From the IMG/VR virus record IMGVR_UViG_3300027987_000201, positions 1-26,073 of that record: a stretch of DNA of 26,073 nucleotides; one strand, 5' to 3'. A program made the translations under genes and the position numbers. How positions within the stretch are numbered: the first letter of the stretch is position 1; each line of letters starts with the position of its first letter. Positions 4,237 to 22,618 of this stretch are shown here, piece after piece. The notes beneath the pieces are model-generated. The model was not told the DNA's origin, made no database searches, and saw nothing but the letters and a program-made list of their open reading frames with translations. The stretch comes from a virus.

Positions 4237-4584
4237 ATGAACAAGCAAGTTGATAAGATGATCGAGGCAGATGCAAGAAAGAATTTGGAGCGGCCAGCGT
4301 TGGAGAAACCGATCTATTCGCAGGAGTTCATGGCGGCGATGGAGGAATACGCCTTCCATACGCTGGTGAACCACCTGGAAGCGAAGGGGGTCGGGAAGGA
4401 GGCGGTGGACCTGCTCGAGAATATGTACCTGCTCGGCGGCCTGCGGATCACGTTCCTGAAGGAGGCCGAGGTGCGGTATATTTGGAACGAGCACGCGGGC
4501 GATGTGATCGCGGGCATCAGCAGGGCGGTGCCTGCGCTGGGAGGTCATTTTATTACACCGACAGGAGTGCTGCTGGAAGCATAA
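4237..4584 (+). CDS. hypothetical protein under possible translational control, 115 aa
   Basis: A helical, acidic cytoplasmic-type protein: MNKQVDKMIEADARKN, then helices such as FMAAMEEYAFHTLVNHLEA and KEAVDLLENMYLLGGLR, ending ITPTGVLLEA. No known domain is recognised. AGGAG at 4225-4229 is correctly placed before ATG 4237, but this Shine-Dalgarno lies inside the arm GGAGACGACCA that can pair with 4180-4190. Translation may therefore depend on RNA folding. It stands alone between the structured leader and the promoter-terminator unit downstream, a position often taken by phage regulators. A regulator role is inference from position only. Confidence 0.6.
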   Translation: MNKQVDKMIEADARKNLERPALEKPIYSQEFMAAMEEYAFHTLVNHLEAKGVGKEAVDLLENMYLLGGLRITFLKEAEVRYIWNEHAGDVIAGISRAVPALGGHFITPTGVLLEA

Positions 4585-4605
4585 ATTACATGTTTTGCAC
4601 AGGTA

Positions 4606-4634
4606 TTGACAAGGAATTGAAAAACTGTTAAAAA
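4606..4634 (+). promoter_or_regulatory. sigma70-type promoter, candidate late promoter
   Basis: TTGACA (4606-4611) is a perfect -35 box. Seventeen bases later is TAAAAA (4629-4634), preceded by TG at 4626-4627 as an extended -10. The predicted start of transcription is near 4641. It points into the intrinsic terminator at 4698-4732 and then into the lysis and structural genes. Confidence 0.65.
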
Positions 4635-4640
4635 TATCCT

Positions 4641-4732
4641 AATTGAAGAAGCAATGGCAGGCCTGATACAGTTTTCGGGCCAGTAAGACGAGTTGAGCGC
4701 CGTCGTGACGTAATGTCACGGCGGCGTTTTTT
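4641..4732 (+). ncRNA. candidate ~90-nt leader or small RNA between promoter and terminator
   Basis: From the predicted start near 4641 to the U-tract at 4732 the transcript would be about 92 nt, with two hairpins: GGCCTG (4660-4665) with CGGGCC (4676-4681), six pairs including one G-U and a 10-nt loop, and the terminator hairpin. No good ORF is contained in it. It may be a free small RNA or the leader of an antiterminated late transcript. Ends are predicted, not measured. Confidence 0.4.
4698..4732 (+). terminator. strong rho-independent terminator
   Basis: CGCCGTCGTGAC (4698-4709) pairs with GTCACGGCGGCG (4715-4726), 12 pairs with one G-U, around the 5-nt loop GTAAT, and is followed directly by six T residues (4727-4732). 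It ends the short transcript from the promoter at 4606. It would also end read-through from the early genes. Confidence 0.85.
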
Positions 4733-4740
4733 GTTGCTTC

Positions 4741-4780
4741 TACCTCCCCCCCAACCCCTCTCCTAAAGGAGAGGGGAGCA
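4741..4780. repeat. REP-like palindrome (copy 2)
   Basis: CCCCTCTCCT (4755-4764), AA, AGGAGAGGGG (4767-4776) is a perfect 10-bp stem with a 2-nt loop, preceded by a C-rich run. It belongs to the same general type as the element at 1793-1813. It ends 23 bp before the ATG at 4800. Confidence 0.65.
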
Positions 4781-4799
4781 AAGAAATGGAGAAATTGAT

Positions 4800-5006
4800 A
4801 TGAAAACAAAAGCCATTGTCGTTTCGAAGATCGTTTGGGTGAACCTGATCATGACCGTGCTTGCGGTGATCGATCTGCTTTCCACCACGCCGATCGTCCC
4901 GCCTGAATACCTGCCCTGGCTGGCAGCGTTCGCGGGCGTGTTGAACATCGTCCTGCGCATCTGGTTCACCGATACCACGCTGCAAGGCGTATTCAAGGCC
5001 AAGTAA
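4800..5006 (+). CDS. small holin-like membrane protein, 68 aa
   Basis: Two hydrophobic segments, about residues 8-28 (SKIVWVNLIMTVLAVIDLL) and 39-58 (WLAAFAGVLNIVLRIWF), are separated by a short PPEYLP turn, with a short lysine-containing C-terminus. Small two-helix proteins with KxVWVN near the start and NIVLR.W in the second helix are frequent in phage genomes and are usually taken as holin-like. The position just upstream of the endolysin supports a lysis role. GGAG at 4788-4791 serves ATG 4800. It is the first gene after the late promoter-terminator unit. Holin activity itself is not shown by sequence. Confidence 0.6.
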   Translation: MKTKAIVVSKIVWVNLIMTVLAVIDLLSTTPIVPPEYLPWLAAFAGVLNIVLRIWFTDTTLQGVFKAK

Positions 5007-5011
5007 ACATA

Positions 5012-5305
5012 ATGCAGTTGGTTTTCGATCCATACGCGCTGGTCGTGGCGCTTTCGATCCTTGCGGCAGCATGGATGTGGGGATTGGAATGGAGGCTGAG
5101 ATATCCGATCCCCATCTGGGAAATGGCGCGTATTTTTATGATCGCGCTCTCCATCCAATTTGCCATTTACAGCTTGTTCTCATTCCTTTTGATCGATGTC
5201 CAATTGCGCGTGTACCTTGTGCGCACATCGATCATCGTCGTTTGTCTTGCCCAGGCCATCCCATTGTTCATTGCATACAGGACCTGGAATCATGGCGCTC
5301 GATAA
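5012..5305 (+). CDS. small three-helix membrane protein of the lysis region, 97 aa
   Basis: Three hydrophobic segments are visible: YALVVALSILAAAWMWGLEW, FMIALSIQFAIYSLFSFLLI and TSIIVVCLAQAIPLFIA. Size and number of helices fit a class I holin or an accessory lysis membrane protein. The gene lies 5 bp downstream of the previous membrane protein and overlaps the next gene by 14 bp, so all belong to one lysis operon. No family-specific motif is recognised. It could be the true holin, with the upstream protein a partner, or the reverse. Confidence 0.55.
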   Translation: MQLVFDPYALVVALSILAAAWMWGLEWRLRYPIPIWEMARIFMIALSIQFAIYSLFSFLLIDVQLRVYLVRTSIIVVCLAQAIPLFIAYRTWNHGAR

Positions 5306-5633
5306 TGAATTCCTGCGGTTCCTCGGCGTCACATTGCTTTCGCTGTTGAACTTCATCCTGTTCCTGTGGCAATCGTTGAAGCGTGTGCCGCGCGAAGTGG
5401 ACAAGATGAAAGCCGAGCAATATGAGAGCCTGACCGAGGCTGCCGAGAGCAATATGCAGGGCGCACAGATCAGCAATGAGCTATTGACGAAACGGATCGA
5501 AGAACTGAAACACGAAGACCATAAGAAGGCAATGCACATCAAGAACCTCGAAGGGCAACTGCGCGCACACGGCATCGAACCATCCGCGCCGCCCACCACT
5601 GGCGAGTTGAATGCGATGAGAAAAGGTCAATGA
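5292..5633 (+). CDS. membrane-anchored coiled-coil protein of the lysis region, 113 aa
   Basis: One N-terminal hydrophobic segment (FLGVTLLSLLNFILFLWQSL, about residues 10-29) is followed by a charged, heptad-like helix from about residue 35 to 95 (EVDKMKAEQYESLTEAAE and IEELKHEDHKKAMHIKN) and a proline-containing tail. This plan is shared by inner-membrane spanins and other phage membrane coiled-coil proteins. No lipoprotein partner (outer spanin) is seen nearby, so spanin function is only a possibility. ATG 5292 lies after CCTGGAAT and overlaps the upstream gene by 14 bp. An earlier in-frame start at 5196 would create a long overlap and is rejected. It ends ATGA with the endolysin gene. Confidence 0.55.
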   Translation: MALDNEFLRFLGVTLLSLLNFILFLWQSLKRVPREVDKMKAEQYESLTEAAESNMQGAQISNELLTKRIEELKHEDHKKAMHIKNLEGQLRAHGIEPSAPPTTGELNAMRKGQ

Positions 5634-5923
5634 ACATCCATCAAATCAAGCAATGGGTTCAGAATAATCTTCGGTATGAAGAGAACAGCCGCAAAAGCAA
5701 CCGAGAAATGCTACAGGCGGCTCTTCCGCTTTCTGCAAAGATGGAAGCCTTGTCCGCGCTTGTGCAACCCGATTATTCGCGCTCATGGGGCATCGATATC
5801 AGTGGCAAATGGGATGGCTATGTGGATCTATCCGTCACCAAGTCGATGGGTGCATCGTTCGCCTATCTCAAAGGCGCAGATGGGACGATTCATGATGACA
5901 CGTATTATCCCGTCAACAGGTAG
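5630..5923 (+). CDS. GH25 endolysin, N-terminal part, ended by an in-frame amber codon
   Basis: After a ~50-residue helical leader the protein enters the start of a glycoside hydrolase 25 lysozyme domain: SWGIDISGKWDG with the conserved Asp at residue 56, then ASFAYLKGADGTIHDDTYY. GH25 enzymes cleave the MurNAc-GlcNAc bond of peptidoglycan. A TAG at 5921-5923 (codon 98) stops it at PVNR. The same frame continues without another stop as KALDADLPHGPYFWLYR, exactly the expected next part of the fold, so TAG replaces a sense codon (CAG is one base away). As read here, the 97-residue product lacks the active site DFE and cannot be a working lysozyme unless the amber is suppressed. Confidence 0.75.
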   Translation: MNIHQIKQWVQNNLRYEENSRKSNREMLQAALPLSAKMEALSALVQPDYSRSWGIDISGKWDGYVDLSVTKSMGASFAYLKGADGTIHDDTYYPVNR

Positions 5924-8226: not shown

Positions 8227-9796
8227 TCACGATGCGATCAAGGATGAATTACGCAGCCGCTTGATGGCGGAGCGTGATTTCCTTACCTTCTGCCAGCACG
8301 TGGACAGGAAGCATCCGACCGATGCGAAGCATGTGCAGGTATTGGCGCACAAGCTCGAACAGGTTGCGAAGTACATCCTGACAGGCGGGGTGGAAGGCAT
8401 TTCGCGTTTGATGGTGTTCATGCCTCCGCGTTATTGGAAAAGCCAGACCGCTTCGCGCAAGTTCCCTGCCTGGTTATTGGGCAAGAACCCTGACCTGCGC
8501 ATCATTCTGACCTCGTATAACGTGGACCTTGCCAGCAAACATTCCAAAGCTGTGCGCGACCTGATCCAAACCGAGGAATATTCGCAGGTGTTCGGGCAGC
8601 TCTCTTCGAACGATGCGCCTGTGGAATTGGACCCTGACAGCAAGGCTTCGGTGGGCTGGGAGATCGCAGACCATAACGGCGGGATGCACGCCGCGGGCGT
8701 TGGAGGCGGTATCACAGGCTTCGGGGCGAACCTGTTCATCATCGATGATCCAGTCAAAGGCAGGAAAGAAGCGAGTTCCGAGACGATATCCGATGACCAG
8801 TACGAATGGTACAAGTCCACGGCTTATACACGTTTGGAAGACCACGGCGCGATCATCGTCATCCAAACGCGCTGGGATGTGAAGGACCTTTCGGGTCGTC
8901 TGCTCGAGGCGATGGTCTCTGATGAGGAAGCCGATCAATGGGACGTGGTGTTCATGCCCGCGATCGCTCCCGATGAAAAGGAATATCCGAAGAACGAAGA
9001 AGAGTTCCGCGAGAACCTTTTGGGCGGCGTGTTCCTGCCGATGGATGGTGACCAGCTCGGGCGCAAGCCTGGCGAACCGTTATGGCCGAAGAAGCATGAC
9101 ATTCAGGCTTTGCGCATCAAGAAAGCCAATATGGATGACTTTGAGTTCGCGGCGCAGTATGACCAGATGCCGAAACTCGCCAAAGGCAATTTCTTCGATG
9201 AAGACGATTTCGATATCGTGCCGCGCGCGCCTGAAGGTTTGCAGTGGTATCGCTATGTGGACCTGGCTTTGGGCAAGACCCAGCAAAGCGATTTCAATGC
9301 GACGGCTGCGGTGGGTATGGACCACAACGGTGAGATGTACATCCGAGACATGATCCGTGAGAGAAACCTTGACCTGTTCATGGGCGATCTGAAAGTTGCG
9401 ATGCTAAGCGATAAAGAGCACGGCGTCATTTGGGGCATTGAAGACAATGCCTTTCAATCGTTGGTGGTGAAGCAATTTCTCAAGGATAAGAGCCTTGCGA
9501 AGATCTCCATCATCGGCGTTACGCGAAGCAGTGGCGAAGGCGATAAAACGCAATGGGCACAGCCCTGGCGTTTGCGTTCAAAACAAAAGATGGTCCACCT
9601 GGTTCGCGGTGCATGGAACTTAACTTTCAAACGAGAGGCGACTTCCTTCCCGAAAGGCGCGAACGATGACCAGGTTGATTCGGTCAGCGGCGGGAACCAG
9701 ATGATCGCTGATGATGTAAGCGGCACGAACCGCACGGCAAGCAGTGAAGCGGTGGTGGTTTCGGCAGAGCAATTATTTGCAGATATTTTGATGTAG
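8213..9796 (+). CDS. terL: terminase large subunit, 527 aa
   Basis: This is the packaging motor that hydrolyses ATP to fill the prohead and cuts the concatemer. The ATPase half has a Walker A-like MPPRYWKSQTAS at residues 70-81 (the PPRxxKS form typical of phage terminases, with Trp where Gly is common) and Walker B LFIIDDP at 174-180, followed by a Thr/Gln-rich coupling segment IVIQTRWD. The RNase H-like nuclease half has acidic residues at YVDLALGK (D350), IEDNAFQS and NDDQVDSVSG (484-493). ATG 8213 follows GAGGAAG and overlaps the small-subunit gene by 14 bp. The gene ends in TAG, whose G is also the first base of the palindromic repeat at 9796. Confidence 0.95.
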   Translation: MLANNHDAIKDELRSRLMAERDFLTFCQHVDRKHPTDAKHVQVLAHKLEQVAKYILTGGVEGISRLMVFMPPRYWKSQTASRKFPAWLLGKNPDLRIILTSYNVDLASKHSKAVRDLIQTEEYSQVFGQLSSNDAPVELDPDSKASVGWEIADHNGGMHAAGVGGGITGFGANLFIIDDPVKGRKEASSETISDDQYEWYKSTAYTRLEDHGAIIVIQTRWDVKDLSGRLLEAMVSDEEADQWDVVFMPAIAPDEKEYPKNEEEFRENLLGGVFLPMDGDQLGRKPGEPLWPKKHDIQALRIKKANMDDFEFAAQYDQMPKLAKGNFFDEDDFDIVPRAPEGLQWYRYVDLALGKTQQSDFNATAAVGMDHNGEMYIRDMIRERNLDLFMGDLKVAMLSDKEHGVIWGIEDNAFQSLVVKQFLKDKSLAKISIIGVTRSSGEGDKTQWAQPWRLRSKQKMVHLVRGAWNLTFKREATSFPKGANDDQVDSVSGGNQMIADDVSGTNRTASSEAVVVSAEQLFADILM

Positions 9797-9833
9797 GTCT
9801 CGATACGCCGCTGAGTACAGCGGCTACTCGACC
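9796..9833. repeat. REP-like palindrome of GGTCTCGATA type (copy 3)
   Basis: The element runs from GGTCTCGATA to CTACTCGACC, with a perfect central stem GCCGCTG (9807-9813), AGTA, CAGCGGC (9818-9824). It resembles a widely dispersed class of bacterial intergenic palindromes. It begins within the stop codon of the large terminase gene and ends 3 bp before the AAGGAG (9836-9841) of the capsid gene. Confidence 0.65.
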
Positions 9834-9848
9834 ACAAGGAGAAATGAC

Positions 9849-12143
9849 ATGGCAAAGAAATTCAATGAACGTGTGGATGCGCAGGTGGTGCTCGAAGAAC
9901 GTGAAGAGGGCAAGCCGCGCAAGATCAAGATCGAAGGTGCAATCACGGCGGATGTTGTGAATGGCAACAAACGCCGATATCCTGCTGATGTAGTGCGTTC
10001 AGCGGTGGAGGAACTCCAAGGCCATCTGAACGAAAGCGCAGGGCAGGGACGTGCCATTCAGCTCCTCGGCGAGGCAGAACATCCGTCAGACAAGGGCGGG
10101 CGGGCCAACCTGCTGGAAACCGTAACCAAGTGGGAGAACGTGCAGTTCGACGGCGCACGTGTTGATCTCACTGGCCGCATTCTGGAAACCAGCAAAGGCA
10201 AAGACATCCTGACCCTGATGGAAGGCGGCGTGATGCCAGGCGTGAGTCTGCGTGGATACGGTGAAGGCAAAAACACTGGAAAGGGCGATAACAAGATCTT
10301 CGAAGTTTCGGAGCTGCATATCACAGGCTTTGACCTGGTGTTGGAACCGAGCTTCGAGAACTCCGCCCAATTAATTGAATCAATCCAAGGAGATGATGAA
10401 ATGACCCCTGAGGAACTCCTCAAACTGTTGAAAGAACACCCCGAAGTTTTCGAGGGTATTACCGAAGCCCAGGTGAAGAAGATGGGCGAAACCCAATTGA
10501 AGGCGCTCGAAGAGCAGGTCCGCGCGGCGCTGGGGATCGATGGCAAGGCCGATATCGCCGAGTCATTGAAGGGCATGGCTGAGAAGGCTCGCAAGTTCGA
10601 AGAGAGCCAGAAGGTCTCCGCCATCGATGAAGCGAAGAAGGCAGCCTGCAAGGACCTTCCGTTCGGCGAGAAATTCAACAAGATGTTCACCGAGAGCATC
10701 GAGGAAGCCGAATTCGACAGCCCCGAAGCTGTGAAGAAGTTCGCCGAATCCCTGCACAAGCAGTACAGCAAGATCACTGCGGATCTCAAGCTGAAGGGCA
10801 TGGGCTTCGTGGAAGGCAAAGGCCTGCAGGTGCGCGGTCCCGTTCTCGAGAGTGAGACGGGCACGCCTGAGTTCGCGCGTGCGAGCTTCGAGTTGAGCGA
10901 ATCCATCCGCCGCGTGGAGATGTCTGATACGCGCGATTGGAACAAGCCTGTGAGCTTGAACGAGAAGTTCACGAAGATGCTGCTCACCCGCTTCGATGCG
11001 CTCCACAAGCAAAAACTGCTCGCTGAGAGCAAGGCGCTCGAGGAAGCCGAGATCACCACGGACCTGAACCTGCCCTATTCCGTCAGCCGCGCGCTGATCG
11101 AAGAGGCGTTCCCGAACCTGGTGGCATCTGGCATCTTCGATGTGGGCATCATGAACAACAGCCCCGAGCTGTTGTACTTCGAAACATTCAGCGGCGACAG
11201 CGGCTACACTGGCACAGTGACCGATGAAGTTGTGACGGGCGGCGCGGAAGAGGTATGGTATGCGCTCGCTCATGGACGTGTCACGCCAGGGACCGTGGTG
11301 GTCACATCGAACCCCGCTGGCACCACCTATGTGGAAGGCACTGACTTTGTGATCGATTACGGCGCAGGCCGCATTAAGTTCCTTTCGGCTGGCTCGATCA
11401 ATGCGAACGATGTGCTTGTGGATTACGGCTACACCGCCGTGCGTGATGGCGAGATGGCCGTGATACAACGCGGTGAGATCAACCTGAGCTACATCACCAT
11501 CACCGCTGCGGCAGACCGCCTGGCTGACCAGATCAGCCGTGAGGCGATCGTGTTCGCCGCTTCGCAGATGGGACTGGACGTGGTAGCCCGCACGATGGCC
11601 AACCTGGTCAAGCAACTCCGCCGCAAGATCGACCTTGGCATCATCTATGCTGCATGGTCCGCGGTCAAATCCGTTGCTTCCAATAGCGGCGGCACGTGGA
11701 CCATCGGCACCACAGATGCAGACTATGCGGAACTCGCACGCCTAATCGGTGCAACGAAGTTGATCGTCCGCAACCGCTATTACAACCCCACCTTTGTGCT
11801 GATGAGCGCCACCAATGCCGAATATCTCAGCAACTGGTCTGGCTTCAAGCGTGACGGTTTCCCCGATGCGCTTTTGACCGCGGCTGGTTTCGTTGGCAAC
11901 CTCAAAGGGCTGCCCGTTTTCCAGTCCACTGAAATGCCCGACACCGAGGTGATCGTAGGCAACCGTGAACTGGTGATGCACCGCGTCTTCCAGCCTGCGT
12001 TGATCAATGGACCATATCACACACAGGATGTGAGCACTGGCAAGTTGATCGCGGCACAGCAATACTATGTGGAAGAGTTCAACAACACGGAAACACCCGT
12101 CGAAGAAAAGGGCGCTTTCCTGACCGTGGCTTCTGGCTCATAG
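9849..12143 (+). CDS. fused prohead protease, scaffold and major capsid protein, 764 aa
   Basis: Residues 1-180 resemble the T4 gp21-type prohead protease: TADVVNGNKRRYP, GEAEHP with probable catalytic His78, GRILETSKGKD, and MPGVSLRG with probable nucleophile Ser133. Residues 185-370 are charged and helical, like a scaffold or delta domain. About 375-764 is an HK97-fold capsid protein (LPYSVSRALIEEAFP, GEINLSYITITAAADRLAD, RNRYYNPTFVLMSATN), with a beta-rich insertion around EGTDFVIDYGAGRIKF. AAGGAG at 9836-9841 serves ATG 9849. A second full Shine-Dalgarno and in-frame ATG at 10401 would yield a 580-residue scaffold-capsid protein without protease. The nested start suggests many capsid subunits and few protease fusions. 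It ends in TAG. Confidence 0.85.
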   Translation: MAKKFNERVDAQVVLEEREEGKPRKIKIEGAITADVVNGNKRRYPADVVRSAVEELQGHLNESAGQGRAIQLLGEAEHPSDKGGRANLLETVTKWENVQFDGARVDLTGRILETSKGKDILTLMEGGVMPGVSLRGYGEGKNTGKGDNKIFEVSELHITGFDLVLEPSFENSAQLIESIQGDDEMTPEELLKLLKEHPEVFEGITEAQVKKMGETQLKALEEQVRAALGIDGKADIAESLKGMAEKARKFEESQKVSAIDEAKKAACKDLPFGEKFNKMFTESIEEAEFDSPEAVKKFAESLHKQYSKITADLKLKGMGFVEGKGLQVRGPVLESETGTPEFARASFELSESIRRVEMSDTRDWNKPVSLNEKFTKMLLTRFDALHKQKLLAESKALEEAEITTDLNLPYSVSRALIEEAFPNLVASGIFDVGIMNNSPELLYFETFSGDSGYTGTVTDEVVTGGAEEVWYALAHGRVTPGTVVVTSNPAGTTYVEGTDFVIDYGAGRIKFLSAGSINANDVLVDYGYTAVRDGEMAVIQRGEINLSYITITAAADRLADQISREAIVFAASQMGLDVVARTMANLVKQLRRKIDLGIIYAAWSAVKSVASNSGGTWTIGTTDADYAELARLIGATKLIVRNRYYNPTFVLMSATNAEYLSNWSGFKRDGFPDALLTAAGFVGNLKGLPVFQSTEMPDTEVIVGNRELVMHRVFQPALINGPYHTQDVSTGKLIAAQQYYVEEFNNTETPVEEKGAFLTVASGS
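10387..10403 (+). promoter_or_regulatory. internal ribosome binding site and start of the scaffold-capsid product
   Basis: AAGGAG (10387-10392), an 8-nt spacer and ATG (10401-10403) lie inside the protease-capsid gene and in its frame (codon 185). The following residues, MTPEELLKLLKEHPEV, look like a natural N-terminus of a scaffold or delta domain. This is as strong as any ribosome binding site in the window. It marks either a functional nested gene or the relic of two genes fused by loss of a stop codon. Confidence 0.65.
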
Positions 12144-12162
12144 TCATCCACATCCACCTCAC

Positions 12163-12213
12163 CTCCCCCTCTCCTAATCCCCTAACGGGGACGCTACGCA
12201 GGGAGAGGGGGAG
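12163..12213. repeat. compound REP-like palindrome (copy 4)
   Basis: CTCCCCCTCTCC (12163-12174) and GGAGAGGGGGAG (12202-12213) form a perfect 12-bp outer stem. An inner stem TCCCC (12178-12182) with GGGGA (12187-12191) around TAAC gives a branched shape. The element separates the capsid gene from the glycosyltransferase cassette and ends 19 bp before the ATG at 12233. Confidence 0.7.
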
Positions 12214-12232
12214 CAGGGCGAAGGAATAGGAA

Positions 12233-13474
12233 ATGAATTATTGGAATGAACCGATCCAATTCTTAGCGCGGACGGAACCGCATATCGAATTACTGGCTCC
12301 GATCTATCTGGCAATGGACCCGTCCATGCGCGGTGAGTTCTTCGTGCCAGAGACTTTGCTTTTGCAGGCGTTCGAATTTGGCGTGGATGCAATCGGTCTG
12401 CATGGGTCGTTGAACCAGCCGCTGGAGGTGATGCCGCCGCCGAGCCTGGCTCCGATGGTGACGACGGGATACCGTGACCTGTTGATCGCCGTGCGGTCGC
12501 ATAACAAGCGTCCGCAGATCTATTTCCAGATGGATGCGTTCAAGGCGGCAGCACAGGATAAGGTCAATTTGTTCCTGTGCCCGAATGACAGGCGGTTGGA
12601 ATGGGTCAAGAATTTCTGGCCGAACAGGTCCGCTATTTTGATGAGTGACCAGGCCGAAGTCACGGCTGAAGCGATCGCCGATTATGTGCGTGAGCGAGGC
12701 AATTTGAAAAAGATCACTGAGATCGACGGTGATAGCATCGGCATCCTATATATCGCTTTCGGAGAAAAGGCTGCCAATGCTGTGCGCGAGAGTGCCAGGA
12801 GCTTGCGGCGCGTTGGATTGCAGATCCCCGTTTGTGTGGTGGGTGATATGCCAGTGACTGGATTCCAGTTCATCGAGTGGACAGGCGAGAGCCCTTTCGA
12901 CCACACACAGCGCAGCAATTTCCAATTCCGCGCTGGTCGCATCAAGCCCAGGCTTGTGGACATAACCCCGTTCGATCGGACGCTGTATCTGGATGCGGAT
13001 ACGGAATTCATGGACGACATCATCCCAGGCTTCGAAGCGCTCAGCGAATATGACGTTGCGATCGCGCGCGAGAATCTGACCCTACATCAGCTCTACAATA
13101 AAAAGCTGGCGGGCTGGGAGATCAACATTCAAGAGCGTGACGCAACCATCAAGGAGTTGGGAGCTGGTCCGCATGTGTTCTTTTTGAACAGCGGTGTGCT
13201 TTTCTTCCGCAAATCCACGGCGGCGATCGCAGGGATGCGCCGCTGGCATGAAGCATGGATGGAATGGCAGCAATGGGATGAACAACTCGCCTTCATGCGC
13301 GCCTTCCATCGCACGCCTAAAGCGCGTGTGAAACTGCTCGAGCCCGAATGGAATTATCCGCATCGAAGCCATAACGGAATCGTGATCTTCCATAACTATG
13401 GCAGGGGTGTGGTGCGGATGGATGCTCCCATAACTGTGAGCCATGAGCAGTTGGCGATTAGCGAGGCGGCATGA
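12233..13474 (+). CDS. GT-A type glycosyltransferase with an N-terminal extra domain, 413 aa
   Basis: The C-terminal half (about 165-413) resembles nucleotide-sugar-dependent transferases of the GT8-like group: KPRLVDITPFDRTLYLDAD with the metal-binding DxD at 254-256, FFLNSGVLFFRKS, a WDEQLAF helix, and EWNYPH with a late FHNYG. The N-terminal ~160 residues (with QAFEFGVDAIGLHG and NLFLCPNDRRLEWV) form a separate domain I cannot assign. The start ATG 12233 follows AAGGA. It is the first of four genes joined by overlaps between capsid and connector genes, so it probably glycosylates a virion protein or a surface glycan. The acceptor is unknown. Confidence 0.75.
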   Translation: MNYWNEPIQFLARTEPHIELLAPIYLAMDPSMRGEFFVPETLLLQAFEFGVDAIGLHGSLNQPLEVMPPPSLAPMVTTGYRDLLIAVRSHNKRPQIYFQMDAFKAAAQDKVNLFLCPNDRRLEWVKNFWPNRSAILMSDQAEVTAEAIADYVRERGNLKKITEIDGDSIGILYIAFGEKAANAVRESARSLRRVGLQIPVCVVGDMPVTGFQFIEWTGESPFDHTQRSNFQFRAGRIKPRLVDITPFDRTLYLDADTEFMDDIIPGFEALSEYDVAIARENLTLHQLYNKKLAGWEINIQERDATIKELGAGPHVFFLNSGVLFFRKSTAAIAGMRRWHEAWMEWQQWDEQLAFMRAFHRTPKARVKLLEPEWNYPHRSHNGIVIFHNYGRGVVRMDAPITVSHEQLAISEAA

Positions 13475-14073
13475 AAGAATCGATTGAGTTCATGCGGAAT
13501 CGGCATGTTGATCAAGCGGTATGGATCGTTGGGAAAGGCCCATCGTTGCAGTACCTGAACGCTGGATATTTTGGTAATGGTCCGATCATTACGATCAATG
13601 AAGCCATTCTGAGCGTTCAGGATCTTCCACTTGCGAATACGATGTATGCCATGAACAAGGATGGATGCCGAAACGAAGCAAAGGGTCATACCTGCCCGAT
13701 GGTCGAGCCGTGGTGGGATGTGAACATGATCCTACAGGCCCCTGGCTTTTCTGAGCATTGTTTCCCAAACCATCCGAATCGCTTATGGATCAACCCTGTT
13801 GACGATCTTGGCTTTGATCTACCAACTGTGCTGAGCGTGCGCATGTGTATTGCGATCGCAAAGCTAATGGGGGGCAATGAGATCAATCTTATTTCGTGCG
13901 ATTCACTTGTGAACGGTGATATGCGCATCTTCGATGGAAAGGTTGTGAGATCGAGCGGCGCATCTGGTCATTACTCACATAATATTTCGATCATTAAGAA
14001 AGAACTGGAAGATATCAAGCACCACTTTATTCTGCCGAGGAAAAATGAACGACAAACAATTGCGAACGCGTGA
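13471..14073 (+). CDS. Maf/DUF115-like glycosyltransferase-related protein, 200 aa
   Basis: The N-terminus VWIVGKGPSLQYL (residues 17-29) is the nucleotide-binding GxGPSL loop found in DUF115/Maf-type proteins and in GT42-like sialyltransferases. It is followed by IITINEAIL, matching the N.E/N.A stretch after this loop. The C-terminal part holds INLISCDSLVNGD and a helix rich in Lys and Glu. Maf relatives transfer nonulosonic acids to flagellin and other surfaces, but the substrate here cannot be read from sequence. ATG 13471 overlaps the upstream TGA (ATGA). The 3' end overlaps the next gene by 29 bp. Base composition is more AT-rich than that of its neighbours. Confidence 0.6.
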   Translation: MKESIEFMRNRHVDQAVWIVGKGPSLQYLNAGYFGNGPIITINEAILSVQDLPLANTMYAMNKDGCRNEAKGHTCPMVEPWWDVNMILQAPGFSEHCFPNHPNRLWINPVDDLGFDLPTVLSVRMCIAIAKLMGGNEINLISCDSLVNGDMRIFDGKVVRSSGASGHYSHNISIIKKELEDIKHHFILPRKNERQTIANA

Positions 14074-14647
14074 ACATACACTTGCCGATGCGCTTGATGG
14101 GCCCATCTCTGCGGATGAAGGGGCGCACCTGGCCTACCTCGCCAGCCTGATCAAAACAGGCGGCACGGTGTTGGAGATCGGAACGAACGAAGGCAAGAGC
14201 GCTTCGTTCATGGCATTTGGCCTGCGGCACGCGCACAACTTCAGGGCTCGCGTCCATTGCGTGGACCTGTGGAGTCTTGGCGGCCCTTCACAGCAGATCA
14301 ATTATCGTGACCCGCGTAAGCAGGCACGCTTCGAAGCGAACATGCTGAGGCTTGGATTGACCGAAACTGTGATCGCCCATCGCGCCGAGAGCACCGAGTT
14401 CGCCAAAACCTGGCAGGGCGAGATCGACCTGCTGTTCATCGACGGCGGACACAAGTATGAAGAGGTGAAGGCCGATTACGAAGCATGGATGAACTTCATT
14501 CCAGTTGGCGGCTATATTGCGATCCATGATGTGTTCGATATGTGGCCTGGCATCATGAAGTTCATGGATGAGATGGTTTATCCCGATGACCGCTGGCAGA
14601 ACTGGCACACGGTCTACCGTTTGAAGACCGCACAGAAAGTGAGATGA
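14045..14647 (+). CDS. class I SAM-dependent methyltransferase, 200 aa
   Basis: The SAM-binding motif I is VLEIGTNEGKSA (from residue 42), followed by VHCVDLWSLGG and the typical IDLLFIDGGHKYEEV and GGYIAIHDV of the Methyltransf_24 group, whose members often modify sugars or secondary metabolites. The start ATG 14045 follows GAGG in the 3' end of the previous gene. It is in tandem with a second methyltransferase of the same type. Its position after two glycosyltransferase-like genes suggests methylation of a sugar, but a protein or DNA target is not excluded. No target-recognition domain of DNA methyltransferases is present. Confidence 0.8.
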   Translation: MNDKQLRTREHTLADALDGPISADEGAHLAYLASLIKTGGTVLEIGTNEGKSASFMAFGLRHAHNFRARVHCVDLWSLGGPSQQINYRDPRKQARFEANMLRLGLTETVIAHRAESTEFAKTWQGEIDLLFIDGGHKYEEVKADYEAWMNFIPVGGYIAIHDVFDMWPGIMKFMDEMVYPDDRWQNWHTVYRLKTAQKVR

Positions 14648-15231
14648 GCATGACAAACGAAGAGATCATCAAAAAGGCGGAGAAAGCAGCGCCATCATGG
14701 ACATCCCCAGCCGAGCGCAACGAAATGATCGACCTGGCAAAACAGGTCCGCGAAGGTGGGCTGATCGTTGAGATCGGCGGTCTGTATGGCGGCATGACGG
14801 CAGTGCTAGGCCTTTCCAATCCGAACGCGCAGATCGTTGTCATTGACGAATTCAGTTGGAATCCCATCAAGGAATTGAAGGCCAGCGCCGCCCTGTTGCT
14901 ATCGAACTGCAATGGCGCAGGCGTGAACAATGTGCGCGTGATCACTGGTGACAGCCGCGTGGTGGGGAAGACGTGGAATCAGCCCATTGATCTACTCTGG
15001 ATCGATGGTGGACATTCCTATGAGTTCGTGAAAAGCGACCTTGATCATTTTGGTCCGCACGCGGCGCGCATCGCGCTGCACGATTATGGCAACCCGTTCT
15101 GGAAGACCATCCAGCAGGCTGTGGATGATTTTCTGAAAGTGCATCCAGAATGGCGCTTCGATCATAACGTGGAGACCGTTGGTGTATTGGAGCGCGTGGT
15201 AACGCCTGAACCGCAGATGAGCGAGATGTAA
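14644..15231 (+). CDS. second class I SAM-dependent methyltransferase, 195 aa
   Basis: LIVEIGGLYGGMT (from residue 40) is motif I, then QIVVIDEFSWNP, VRVITGDSR and IDLLWIDGGHSYEFVKSD with ARIALHDYGNP. It is clearly of the same fold as the preceding gene (shared IDLL.IDGGH.YE.VK.D core) but diverged, so an old duplication or a paired acquisition is likely. ATG 14644 overlaps the previous TGA (ATGA); ATG 14650 is an alternative. It is the last gene of the modification cassette, ending 1 bp before the connector gene. Confidence 0.8.
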   Translation: MSMTNEEIIKKAEKAAPSWTSPAERNEMIDLAKQVREGGLIVEIGGLYGGMTAVLGLSNPNAQIVVIDEFSWNPIKELKASAALLLSNCNGAGVNNVRVITGDSRVVGKTWNQPIDLLWIDGGHSYEFVKSDLDHFGPHAARIALHDYGNPFWKTIQQAVDDFLKVHPEWRFDHNVETVGVLERVVTPEPQMSEM

Positions 15232-16625: not shown

Positions 16626-17903
16626 ATGGCGACATTACGGCAAAGAGTTCAGGCCTTTTTCAATCCACCTGCGCAGGCACAGACCACGCAGAGCGAACCT
16701 GTATCCAAGGGTGCGGATGCGGTCGTTGCCGAGTATGAAAAGCTCAAGGCGGACCGCGAACGTATTGCGGTGATCAAGACCTGCCGCGAGATGTATGCCA
16801 CCGATACGCGCGTGAAAAAGGCGCATCGTTTTTATGCGCGCGATATTGTGCGGGCGGGCTTCATCGTGAAGACAAAGGATGAAACGGCGAAGCAGATCGC
16901 TATCCAGTTGCAGAAGCGATTGAACATGAACCAATTGCTGGAAGATGCCGTGCGTCTCACGTCCCGCGACGGTGATTCGTTCTATGAAGTGGTGATCGAT
17001 GAAGGCTTGCAGATCACCGAACTTTCACGCAAGCCAACGTTGTTGATGCATCGCAACAGCAACAGCACGGACAAGTTCGACGATGCGAACCGTGCCTTCT
17101 GGCAGGGAACGGACCGCTGGATGAGCCCTGAGCCGCCGAAGGATGCGATCTGGTTCCCTGAGTGGCAGATGGTCCATGCACGCTGGGAACATGACCCCGA
17201 GCATAAATACGGTACGCCGATGTTCAGCAGTGCCACATCACCTTTCAAGAAGGTCAAGGATGGTGAGCTGAATGTGGCTGTGCGACGCAAGATGGGCGGC
17301 TCGCAGATCCGCGTTCATAGTGTGGAAGGCGCTCCATCTGACCTTGAGAAATACAAGGAAGATAACAAGGCGGCTTTCGGTACTTTGAACGCCGTGACCG
17401 ACCTATTCAGCAATAAGAAGACCACCGTGGAAGTGAAGCAGGGCGACGGCACGATCGACAAGATCGGCGATGTGACGCATCACGTGGCCACGATGATGAC
17501 CGCTTCGGACGTACCGATGGAATTGATCGCCTATGGCGAAGGACTCAATCGTGACATCCTCGGCGAGAAGAAGGATGAATACGAAGAGACCTTATCACAG
17601 GGACGCGAATGGCTGACCGACCAGCTTGTGGCCCCTGTGTTGGAACGTCAGTGGCTGCTGGCAGGCTTGCTGCCTGATGCCGTGGATTATGAAATTATCT
17701 GGCGCAAGGCCAAACCGATGACACCCGCCGATGTGCGTGACCTGATGGACGCGCTTGCCAAGGCCAAATTACTCGGCATCAACGATGATGTGATCCAAAG
17801 CATTGCAGCGAGTTATCTGCGCGATGTGGATGATGACATTCTGAACATGGATGGTTTCAGCGTCGATCAATTGGCGCAGAATTTGAAAGGGATCAGCGTT
17901 TGA
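16626..17903 (+). CDS. portal protein, 425 aa
   Basis: The protein has the stretches expected of a portal: an N-terminal arm, RERIAVIKTCREMYATDTRV, the wing with LTSRDGDSFYEVVID, a WFPEWQMVHARWEHDPEHKYG segment with G.P-like turns, the DVPMELIAYGEGLNRDILGE region, and the acidic C-terminal helices (MTPADVRDLMDALAKAKLLG). Portals form the 12-fold ring through which DNA passes and to which terminase docks. Here it is not next to terL but nine genes downstream, right before the MuF-like gene. The start ATG 16626 follows AAAGGATAAG. The stop overlaps the next start as TGATG. Confidence 0.85.
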   Translation: MATLRQRVQAFFNPPAQAQTTQSEPVSKGADAVVAEYEKLKADRERIAVIKTCREMYATDTRVKKAHRFYARDIVRAGFIVKTKDETAKQIAIQLQKRLNMNQLLEDAVRLTSRDGDSFYEVVIDEGLQITELSRKPTLLMHRNSNSTDKFDDANRAFWQGTDRWMSPEPPKDAIWFPEWQMVHARWEHDPEHKYGTPMFSSATSPFKKVKDGELNVAVRRKMGGSQIRVHSVEGAPSDLEKYKEDNKAAFGTLNAVTDLFSNKKTTVEVKQGDGTIDKIGDVTHHVATMMTASDVPMELIAYGEGLNRDILGEKKDEYEETLSQGREWLTDQLVAPVLERQWLLAGLLPDAVDYEIIWRKAKPMTPADVRDLMDALAKAKLLGINDDVIQSIAASYLRDVDDDILNMDGFSVDQLAQNLKGISV

Positions 17904-19132
17904 TGAGCGTTTATCTCGAGCCCGTTGTTTTGAATGAAGCCAAGTCCATTGAGCTGATTGCTCAGTTGGAGAAGGTTCCGCTTTCGCGGATGTACCAGGC
18001 TTCGTTCAAGGCAGCTATACGTTTACATATTTGGTTTATGGGTCGCACTCAAGAATTGATTAGCGATTATTACAATGTAGCCCAAGCGACAATTCTGCGT
18101 GGTGGCGATCGAGATGGAATTATTGATAGTGCAATAGGATATCAGATACAACAGAAAATATTGTCCCGATGGGATAAGACTGCAAAGCAATGGACAGATG
18201 AATTTACGCAAGTACGAATTGAAGCAGCGAGCATTCCATTTGGTGTGTTGGCTATATATCACGAACGTCTCGTTCTTCCAGGTTTGAAGAAATTGGAAGA
18301 GGGGAAAGGTGTGGTCGATGGTGTTTTCGAACCGCAGTTGCAAGCATTGGTCACAGCGGGTGAGCAGCAAATATATAAAGATGGTCTCACGCTATCCAGC
18401 AGAATTTGGAAATGGGATCAAGATAGCCGAAACGGGATTAACGATGTTTTGATGAAGGGCATTGTCAACGGCGATTCGGCATGGAACATTGCCAAAGAAC
18501 TTGAACAATATCTTGGAACGGATCAGGATTGTCCGCGCTGGGCATATTCCAGATTGTATGGACTGACAAAGACCGATATTGCTCAAGGCGACTTGCATGG
18601 TTTGTATAGTGATAAAGCATTGTCATGGGAAACCGATTCCGATGGCAATCGTGTGCCAGTTACAGCAACGCCATGTGATGGAAAAAAAGGTGTTAGCTAT
18701 AACGCACTGCGACTTGCGCGTACTGAAATACAAAAAGCGCATGCGCTTGCGACTGATTATGTTATGGCACAGCAGCCTTGGGTGCAGAACGAAAAAATAA
18801 ACACATCACCTTCTCACGGCGAGCCAGATGAATGTGATGAAGTTGCGGCTGGTGGTGATAACAATGATGGAATTTATCCCGTTGGAACGATCAAACTACC
18901 TTTGCACCCCAATTGTTTGTGTTTCAAAACTGCTGATCTCATACCTGAAAAAGAGTTCACATCGAAGCTGAACGCATGGGTAAAGGGAGAAGGTCAATGG
19001 GAAGAACTGGATAACTATGCACAAATGCTTGGTGCAAATACTGCATCGCCACAGGATGCGCTGAATAAATCCATTCTACCAAATGCAATCAATTTAGCGA
19101 TCTGGCTGTTTGACCGAAAACCTAGTTTGTAA
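17903..19132 (+). CDS. MuF-like minor head protein, 409 aa
   Basis: The C-terminal half holds the Mu gpF/SPP1 gp7-type pattern: NALRLARTEIQKAHALATD, then a Cys/Asp stretch (DECDEVA), and HPNCLCF (from residue 335). Such proteins bind the portal and can be ejected with DNA. The first ~35 codons match the GC-rich style of the neighbours, but from about 18000 to 19130 the gene is visibly AT-richer; hand counts of single 60-base lines there give 35-47% GC, against 50-58% in two lines of the portal gene. This suggests that most of the gene was acquired by recombination. The start is ATG 17903, overlapping the portal TGA. Confidence 0.75.
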   Translation: MSVYLEPVVLNEAKSIELIAQLEKVPLSRMYQASFKAAIRLHIWFMGRTQELISDYYNVAQATILRGGDRDGIIDSAIGYQIQQKILSRWDKTAKQWTDEFTQVRIEAASIPFGVLAIYHERLVLPGLKKLEEGKGVVDGVFEPQLQALVTAGEQQIYKDGLTLSSRIWKWDQDSRNGINDVLMKGIVNGDSAWNIAKELEQYLGTDQDCPRWAYSRLYGLTKTDIAQGDLHGLYSDKALSWETDSDGNRVPVTATPCDGKKGVSYNALRLARTEIQKAHALATDYVMAQQPWVQNEKINTSPSHGEPDECDEVAAGGDNNDGIYPVGTIKLPLHPNCLCFKTADLIPEKEFTSKLNAWVKGEGQWEELDNYAQMLGANTASPQDALNKSILPNAINLAIWLFDRKPSL

Positions 19133-20848: not shown

Positions 20849-22618
20849 ATGGCGATCCAGTTAGGTAGTGCATACGGAAAAGTCTCGCTTGATGTCAAGG
20901 GGTTGAAGAACGGTGTTCAGCAGGGCGTTGCAGACCTTGGCAAATTGCAGAAGGCTGGCACACTGCTCGGTTCCACGCTGAAGAATGTTGGTAATAAACT
21001 CACGCTTGGCGTCACGCTTCCCATCGCTGCAATGGGTGCTGCATCCATCAAAGCAGCATCTGACTTCGAAGAGACGAAGAACAAGGCCGTTGTTGTCTTT
21101 GGCCAGATGGCTGATCAAGTGGTTGCCAATGCGAACAAGGCAGGCACTGCACTTGGTCTGAGCCGCACGCAATATCTTGATTATGCATCTTCTCTCGGAG
21201 CGGCCTTCACCGCTGGTGGACTTGGTATCGAAGAGTCGACGGCGCTAGCTGAGCAGGCGGTCAAGCATTTCGCAGATCTGGCCAGTTTCCACAATGCGCG
21301 TGTGGAGGATGTCGCTGCAGCATGGCAGTCCGCCATCCGCGGACAATATGAACCGATCCAGCGTTATTTCCCATTCATCACGAATGAATATCTCAAAACC
21401 TATGGAACGGCCAATGGACTGGTGGATGCCAACACAAAGAACCTGACAGCCAACCAGCGCGCCATCATCCTGAATGCGATCGCACTGGATGAGAAACTGA
21501 ATCCTGCCATCGATGACTTCGCCGAAACTTCTGGCGGACTGGCCAACCAGGGACGCATCCTTCAGGCACAATGGCAGAATGCATTAATCACGTTGGGACA
21601 GAATCTATTGCCGCTCGCCCTCAAACTCGTTACGTTCTTGAACAGTTTGCTTGAAAAATTCAACCAGCTCAATCCCACACAACAAAAGATGGTGATCGGC
21701 TTCCTTGCGATCGCTGCAGCGATCGGTCCTATATTGAGCCTGTTTGGAACACTCATAACCACGGCCACAAGCTTGATCGGTCTATTTGGCTCTGGAGGGT
21801 TGCTTGCAGGTGCGGGAACTGCCATTGCGGGGCTTGGTACAACGATCACAGCCACGCTCATCCCTGCCATCGCTGCCGTTGGCTCGGCCTTATTGCCCAT
21901 ATTGATCGTCCTGGCGGCGATTGCGCTCACGGTCGGGCTCGTGGCATTGGCATGGAAATATAACTTCCTTGGGATGCGCGATAACGTCAACATGTGGATC
22001 AAGATCGTCACCAACCTGTGGAAAGCATTCACTGCCTTCCTGCGCGGCGATACTGAGGCCGCCACCGAATACCTGCAGGAGGCATGGCAGGCCTTCGTGG
22101 ACCGCTTCAATCAGATCTTCGAGAAGATCTTCAACATTCAGAACGCATGGCAGAGGTTCACCGAATTCCTGCGCAATGCATTGGCAAAGACCGTTCAGTT
22201 CATCCGTGACAGCTTCTCGCGCATCGACTGGTCGCTGGTGGGGAAGTTCATCCTGCAGGGCATCGCCAACGGCATGTTGTTGGGCATCCCTGGTCTGATC
22301 GTCATGGCTGGAAAGGTGGCATCTTCTGTTTTGGATACGATCAAAAAAGACCTTGGTATTGCATCTGAAAGTAAAAAATTGAAAGAAGCTGGAATGTGGG
22401 CACGGCGTGGCTTTTATTCTGGCTTCCTTGGAGGTCCCTCTGCCGAAGATACAGCACGCGCGCTTGTCAAGCCGATCATGAACAATGGAGGCTCGCGCTC
22501 TCAGACCGTGAACAATTATTTCAGCGGCGGCGTCACCACAAGACAAGTGAGTGGAATGATCGATGAGAAACTCGATACATTTGCCGATACGATCATCTCA
22601 TCATTACAGGGAACCTAG
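20849..22618 (+). CDS. tape measure protein, 589 aa
   Basis: The N-terminal ~200 residues (KVSLDVKGLKNGVQQGV, IKAASDFEETKNKAVVVFG) are a classic tape measure start with the ASDFEE motif. Hydrophobic segments lie at about 285-370 (GFLAIAAAIGPILSLFG, ALLPILIVLAAIALTVG), as in proteins that reach the host membrane, and coiled helices follow. The C-terminal end (SQTVNNYFSGGV) fits the assembly tip. At the usual ~0.15 nm per residue, 589 residues predict a tail of roughly 85-90 nm, rather short for a siphophage. ATG 20849 follows the T-like stop directly. It ends in TAG. Confidence 0.9.
   Translation: MAIQLGSAYGKVSLDVKGLKNGVQQGVADLGKLQKAGTLLGSTLKNVGNKLTLGVTLPIAAMGAASIKAASDFEETKNKAVVVFGQMADQVVANANKAGTALGLSRTQYLDYASSLGAAFTAGGLGIEESTALAEQAVKHFADLASFHNARVEDVAAAWQSAIRGQYEPIQRYFPFITNEYLKTYGTANGLVDANTKNLTANQRAIILNAIALDEKLNPAIDDFAETSGGLANQGRILQAQWQNALITLGQNLLPLALKLVTFLNSLLEKFNQLNPTQQKMVIGFLAIAAAIGPILSLFGTLITTATSLIGLFGSGGLLAGAGTAIAGLGTTITATLIPAIAAVGSALLPILIVLAAIALTVGLVALAWKYNFLGMRDNVNMWIKIVTNLWKAFTAFLRGDTEAATEYLQEAWQAFVDRFNQIFEKIFNIQNAWQRFTEFLRNALAKTVQFIRDSFSRIDWSLVGKFILQGIANGMLLGIPGLIVMAGKVASSVLDTIKKDLGIASESKKLKEAGMWARRGFYSGFLGGPSAEDTARALVKPIMNNGGSRSQTVNNYFSGGVTTRQVSGMIDEKLDTFADTIISSLQGT

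Follow-up and report, generated by a model that had tools for sequence, protein, structure and literature searches.

Our analysis indicates that a single head gene of the phage contig IMGVR_UViG_3300027987_000201 most probably corresponds to T4 genes 21, 22 and 23 placed in one reading frame and served by two translation starts. The window analyzed here is a stretch of 26,073 nt of that record, in which the open reading frame runs without a stop codon from 9849 to 12143 on the plus strand and encodes 764 aa. The start of the full-length product is preceded by a Shine-Dalgarno (SD) site, AAGGAG, at 9836..9841 (+), with an SD:anti-SD energy of −8.5 kcal/mol, among the strongest in the window. 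An AlphaFold2 model built with 38 homologues and of moderate quality (mean pLDDT 74) shows a protease domain, then a helical middle and then an end with the HK97 fold. Family matches agree with this predicted fold, and we thereby confirm that the gene joins an S77 prohead protease of the T4 gp21 family, a helical scaffold and an HK97-fold capsid domain in one chain, as the initial annotation had proposed.

The prohead protease domain occupies residues 1-177 (9849..10379, +), with a core at about residues 21-170. Pfam PF03420 matches residues 21-169 (E=1.7e-16; 60.8 bits against a cut-off of 27) and PHROG 207 matches the protease part with E=2.4e-26. T4 gp21 itself was recovered as PDB entry 5jbl, by Foldseek with the model, and by hhalign of the protease part against T4 gp21 (E=1e-12). 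The catalytic residues predicted by homology are His78, Ser133 and Asp162, which would form the H-S-D triad of the S77 family (PMC5694885). His78 (10080..10082, +) and Ser133 (10245..10247, +) are each at least 90% conserved and align with LGELNHP and PGVSSRG of T4 gp21, respectively; the solved chain 5jbl has Ala at the position of His78. Asp162 (10332..10334, +) is invariant in 38 sequences.

Residues 185-393 (10401..11027, +) make up the scaffold region, which the AlphaFold2 model renders as a series of helices (206-211, 214-227, 236-266, 274-286, 292-317, 341-357 and 370-399) and which is enriched in the putative cleavage motif PhiXES. The capsid domain follows at residues 394-764 (11028..12140, +). 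Its HK97-fold features in the model include a 33-residue helix at 575-607, and structure searches returned many capsid matches with E<1e-7; Foldseek with the last part of the full-length model likewise gave capsid proteins. When the capsid domain was modelled alone, the best matches were the P1, S6 and T4 capsids, with HK97-type capsids next. At the level of sequence families, PHROG 617 (major head protein) matched weakly at residues 561-739 (3.7e-5), and Pfam Gp23 (PF07068) was detected in 15 of the 38 members (best 8.8e-9), the window's own sequence not among them. Comparison of the capsid profile with single T4 gp23 or single HK97 gp5 by hhalign was not significant. An Ig-like insertion at residues 455-547 (11211..11489, +) lies between capsid strands, probably in the E-loop. 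It matches PHROG 807, 'major tail protein with Ig-like domain' (E=3.4e-13), a domain kept in 37 of 38 homologues, and scores just below the family's cut-off for NCBIfam NF052337 (E=5.6e-16). This insertion in the capsid domain thus resembles the Ig domains of tail-tube and major tail proteins.

Because of these capsid fold matches, the Gp23 hits among the members and the gene order in locus L060 and in T4, the gene looks like a T4-type 21-22-23 block in one reading frame. In L060, a Chloroflexota genome, genes for an S77 protease, a scaffold-like protein and a capsid-like protein stand separately side by side, and T4 has the same protease family and the same order as the window's gene, but in three separate genes. 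The initial annotation had assigned the capsid to the siphophages. We found this assignment unsupported: the nearest solved folds are those of P1, S6 and T4, the family searches also point nearer to these phages, and the domain order is that of T4 21-22-23, although the sequence-level links are weak and mixed. Only the tail genes of the window, for tape measure, major tail protein and tail chaperone, are of siphovirus type. The unusual combination is therefore one of a T4-like head block and siphovirus-like tail genes, and does not lie in the pairing of a T4 protease with a capsid from siphophages.

A nested in-frame start had been proposed exactly at the protease/scaffold border, and the AAGGAG at 10387..10392 (+) and the ATG at 10401..10403 (+), which encodes Met185, are indeed found there. 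The SD:anti-SD energy of the nested start is −8.5 kcal/mol, equal to that of the gene's own start at 9849, and its SD is the strongest of the 99 in-frame internal ATGs in the window's seven large genes. For comparison, the major tail protein (19601) ranks first among the window's gene starts with −8.7, and the nested start of lambda nu3 reaches −6.9 by the same measure, which is weaker than at 10401. When the nested start was aligned across 41 non-redundant sequences, the mean SD energy was −8.9, as opposed to −2.6 for 709 other in-frame ATGs. We also considered an ATG at 10233 (SD −6.6) as a second nested start and rejected it; homologues have Leu or Lys at this position.

Each of the 41 non-redundant sequences spanning this position has a start codon at the border (39 ATG and 2 GTG), two of the 41 having been aligned by hand (L040, shifted by one codon, and L045, in a gapped stretch), and five bacterial loci of 43-60% identity all have an ATG with an SD (−6.4 to −11.4), counts that come from related homologues and do not represent independent events. 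In the two GTG members, L026 and L052, Val replaces Met in the protein; therefore, it is the start codon and not the Met residue that is conserved. The SD core behaves similarly. GGAG occurs in 41 of 41 sequences, in two codon registers (GGA/G in 16, G/GAG in 25) and with its first base at one of three positions, −10 (19 sequences), −12 (16) or −13 (6), and the residues encoded there differ (QGD, MED, SED, KEL, QEN). The linker before the nested start is of variable length across members. It could be argued that a once separate scaffold-capsid gene left its SD and start behind as a relic that is now hardly used, and that all subunits carry the protease and have it cut off later, given that in L060 and T4 each of the three proteins has a gene and a start of its own. 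We consider this unlikely, since an unused site would decay, whereas this one is intact in every sequence that covers it, down to 41-48% identity, despite the changes in linker length, residues and register, and two members start with GTG.

A protein-level constraint offers another explanation, in which a linker or a cleavage site demands Met and the acidic residues, and the likeness to an SD simply follows from Glu and Gly codons. Acidic residues do precede Met185 in most members, and a moderate SD often survives synonymous resampling: with the protein kept, an equally strong SD arose in a mean fraction of 0.26, which is only mildly significant taken alone. On its own, resampling tests the SD too weakly, because the acidic residues here favour GAG, and we therefore relied on register, position and local codon bias, together with the use of GTG and an AT-rich dip. 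The motif Glu is GAG in 25 of 25 cases, whereas neighbouring upstream Glu codons are mostly GAA (85 GAA versus 16 GAG; Fisher 6e-16). GC3 at codons −12 to −5 falls to 0.24-0.32, compared with 0.675 for the ORFs, and the 45-nt folding energy near the nested start is −4.7 versus −10.0; both the low GC3 and the weak local folding are expected of a ribosome entry site. Moreover, the distance from SD to start stays within a few bases while linker length varies widely. Along with the differing residues and the replacement of Met by Val, these observations make the protein-level explanation highly improbable. Taken together, the alignments give strong comparative support to the view that the nested start at 10401 is under selection at the nucleotide level. 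The conserved start codon and SD thus bear out the earlier proposal of a nested in-frame start like that of lambda C/Nu3, with the capsid protein included.

The fusion itself recurs in relatives. Rctr41k (KX853513), an assembly from a methane-oxidising enrichment culture, carries a collinear fused homologue of 79% identity, its gene 30, annotated as 'putative phage capsid protein and protease'. An alignment-based scan of IMG/VR gave 49 loci, 40 of which align over almost the entire query, and an alignment-based scan of bacterial assemblies gave five further fused loci, all open throughout and labelled Anaerolineae, Anaerolineales, Chloroflexi, Clostridiales and, in one case, as a MAG named Slackia. 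A first scan of bacterial genomes with a single protein as the query had returned no matches. Among BFVD predicted viral proteins, additional long chains, of 'prohead protease' and of capsid type, align with most of the window's chain. The patterns used in the main IMG/VR scan, ETGTPEF and FDVG[IV]MN, lie in the scaffold and the capsid, outside the protease, so that relatives with a separate protease would also have been detected; no unfused relatives were found among the scanned IMG/VR loci, in which the protease-less loci end at a contig edge. Because 46 other, independent loci also carry the unbroken fusion, the loss of a stop codon through an assembly error is ruled out. With the same stop-free fusion in Rctr41k, 40 near-complete IMG/VR contigs and five bacterial assemblies, a merger of three genes by assembly or sequencing error or in a broken prophage can be dismissed as extremely improbable.

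We infer that both starts are used and that the two products act together in head assembly. Initiation at 9849 would give the protease-scaffold-capsid chain of 764 aa (84-kDa), and initiation at 10401 would give a predicted short product of 580 aa (64-kDa; 10401..12143, +), which consists of scaffold and capsid without the protease. Long and short chains would co-assemble through their common scaffold and capsid parts and, since these parts are shared, only some of the shell subunits would bring a protease into the prohead. The proportion of protease-bearing subunits would be set by the nested start, that is, by two ribosome sites; the SD strengths at 9849 and 10401 predict no value for this ratio of products.

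S77 proteases cleave after Glu within a three-residue motif (PMC5694885), and after assembly the protease would be expected to cut at PhiXE/S sites. In the complete homologues, PhiXES occurs 166 times in the scaffold versus 21.8 expected from shuffles, and 13 times in the capsid versus 24.5 expected. The most regular motif sites are E177, E300, E351 and E393. Of these, a predicted self-cleavage site, LIE/S at E177/S178 (10371..10382, +), lies between protease and scaffold and has the motif in 36 of 41 sequences. Two predicted cleavage sites are placed toward the capsid: LSE/S at E351/S352 (10893..10904, +), near the scaffold/capsid border, with the motif in 38 of 41 sequences, and LAE/S at E393/S394 (11019..11030, +), at the border, where 20 of 40 sequences have PhiXES and many others have PhiXEA. 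Because E62, within the protease domain, regularly shows the motif too (37 of 39), the motif by itself is no proof of cleavage. The pattern nevertheless predicts that the protease would free itself near E177, dice the scaffold at several sites and trim the capsid, so that the mature capsid protein would begin after E351 or E393.

Several features of the surrounding sequence were recorded. At 9790-9849, most homologues carry about 110 (some up to 290) extra N-terminal residues before the protease (GKPLEELVKGS...); Rctr41k gene 30 is longer than the window's protein by about 110 such residues. A family search with the 110-residue extension gave no convincing match. The window is without the extension, with about 300 bases missing relative to Rctr41k, and at this spot has a hairpin-like sequence, GGTCTCGATACGCCGCT-AGCGGCTACTCGACC, the first half of which is in no other fetched locus. 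Directly after the capsid stop codon, at 12148-12215, lies an inverted-repeat-like sequence, CCCCCTCTCC...GGAGAGGGGG, which may represent a terminator or some repeat element. An insert of about 3 kb relative to Rctr41k follows the capsid gene at 12233-15228; in it, one gene resembles nucleotide-sugar transferases (PF03407) and two others both match DNA methyltransferase PHROG 2675. Portal-like (weak match) and head morphogenesis genes are located at 16626-19132, some 4.5 kb beyond the capsid gene rather than between terminase and capsid; the order in Rctr41k is similar. Finally, a stretch of 37-39 bases at 4740-4778 is 95-97% identical to Rctr41k 21652-21690, just after the capsid gene of Rctr41k, and to 27707-27743, and is a dispersed repeat common to the window's phage and Rctr41k.

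Composite head genes of this general kind have precedents. Effantin and colleagues reportedly described in 2010 that the capsid gene of Gifsy-2 holds a protease, a central scaffold-like part and the major capsid protein in one gene, the protease being, by the same account, ClpP-like. Gifsy-2 and the window's gene have in common a protease, a scaffold-like middle and a capsid in one frame, but the window's gene has an S77 protease and a T4-like capsid. NCBIfam NF045540 represents ClpP-like prohead protease/major capsid protein fusion proteins, whose protease fold is unrelated to S77. The window's protein gave no match to NF045540 and has an S77 protease; it is therefore the same kind of gene but not a member of the ClpP fusion family. 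One ClpP-type composite gene (L157:1989-2984) has a frame that closes after 332 codons while similarity continues downstream, which may reflect a frameshift, a split gene or an error. In HK97, the capsid protein gp5 carries the scaffold (delta) domain at its N-terminus; this arrangement is like that of the window's predicted short product, but the HK97 protease, gp4, has a separate gene. Lambda C (4418-5737) and nu3 (5132-5737, as annotated) show a nested in-frame start in a protease gene and a shared 3' end, whereas lambda capsid protein E has a separate gene and the window's short product includes the capsid. T4 gene 21 has an annotated internal start near the protease N-terminus, in contrast to the scaffold border in the window. 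ES18 was tried as a composite-gene control and dropped, its coat gene being separate. A capsid-protease fusion is reported for Powelldog (PMC12760985). The passage that Gambelli et al. (2016; PMC5099504) devote to the Rctr41k genome names just a prohead protease and says nothing of a nested start. A literature search for a reported nested start in protease-capsid fusions found none. The initial annotation had called the joining of a myovirus-type protease with a siphophage capsid in one chain unusual; this overstates the case, since composite genes as such were already known from Gifsy-2, NF045540 and the Rctr41k annotation. What is new is this S77 version of the composite gene, together with the evidence of selection on its nested start.

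Phages with a maturation protease need few copies of the enzyme among hundreds of shell subunits. In T4, there are about 55 copies of gp21 per prohead (PMC9958956), far below the number of capsid subunits. A single composite gene would seem to impose a ratio of one to one, which a nested start would avoid by means of a single additional ribosome site. For annotation, it follows that homologues would be described as two products, with the mature capsid protein as a cleaved C-terminal part.

Candidate border starts also appear in fusions with the other protease fold. In one clade of ClpP-type fusions, an aligned border ATG with an SD is present in four loci (L159, L160, L161 and L163); another fusion, L166, has a separate border ATG with an SD, and three loci of another clade (L153-L155) have a weaker border site, AAGGA. 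This recurrence of a border ATG and SD, read from the sequences, is suggestive. We put forward tentatively, as something that may well prove otherwise, that a nested start at the border has been retained or has arisen independently in composite genes whose proteases represent two or more unrelated folds, among them S77 and ClpP. If this is true, the two-start capsid polyprotein would be a general way in which phages dose their maturation protease.
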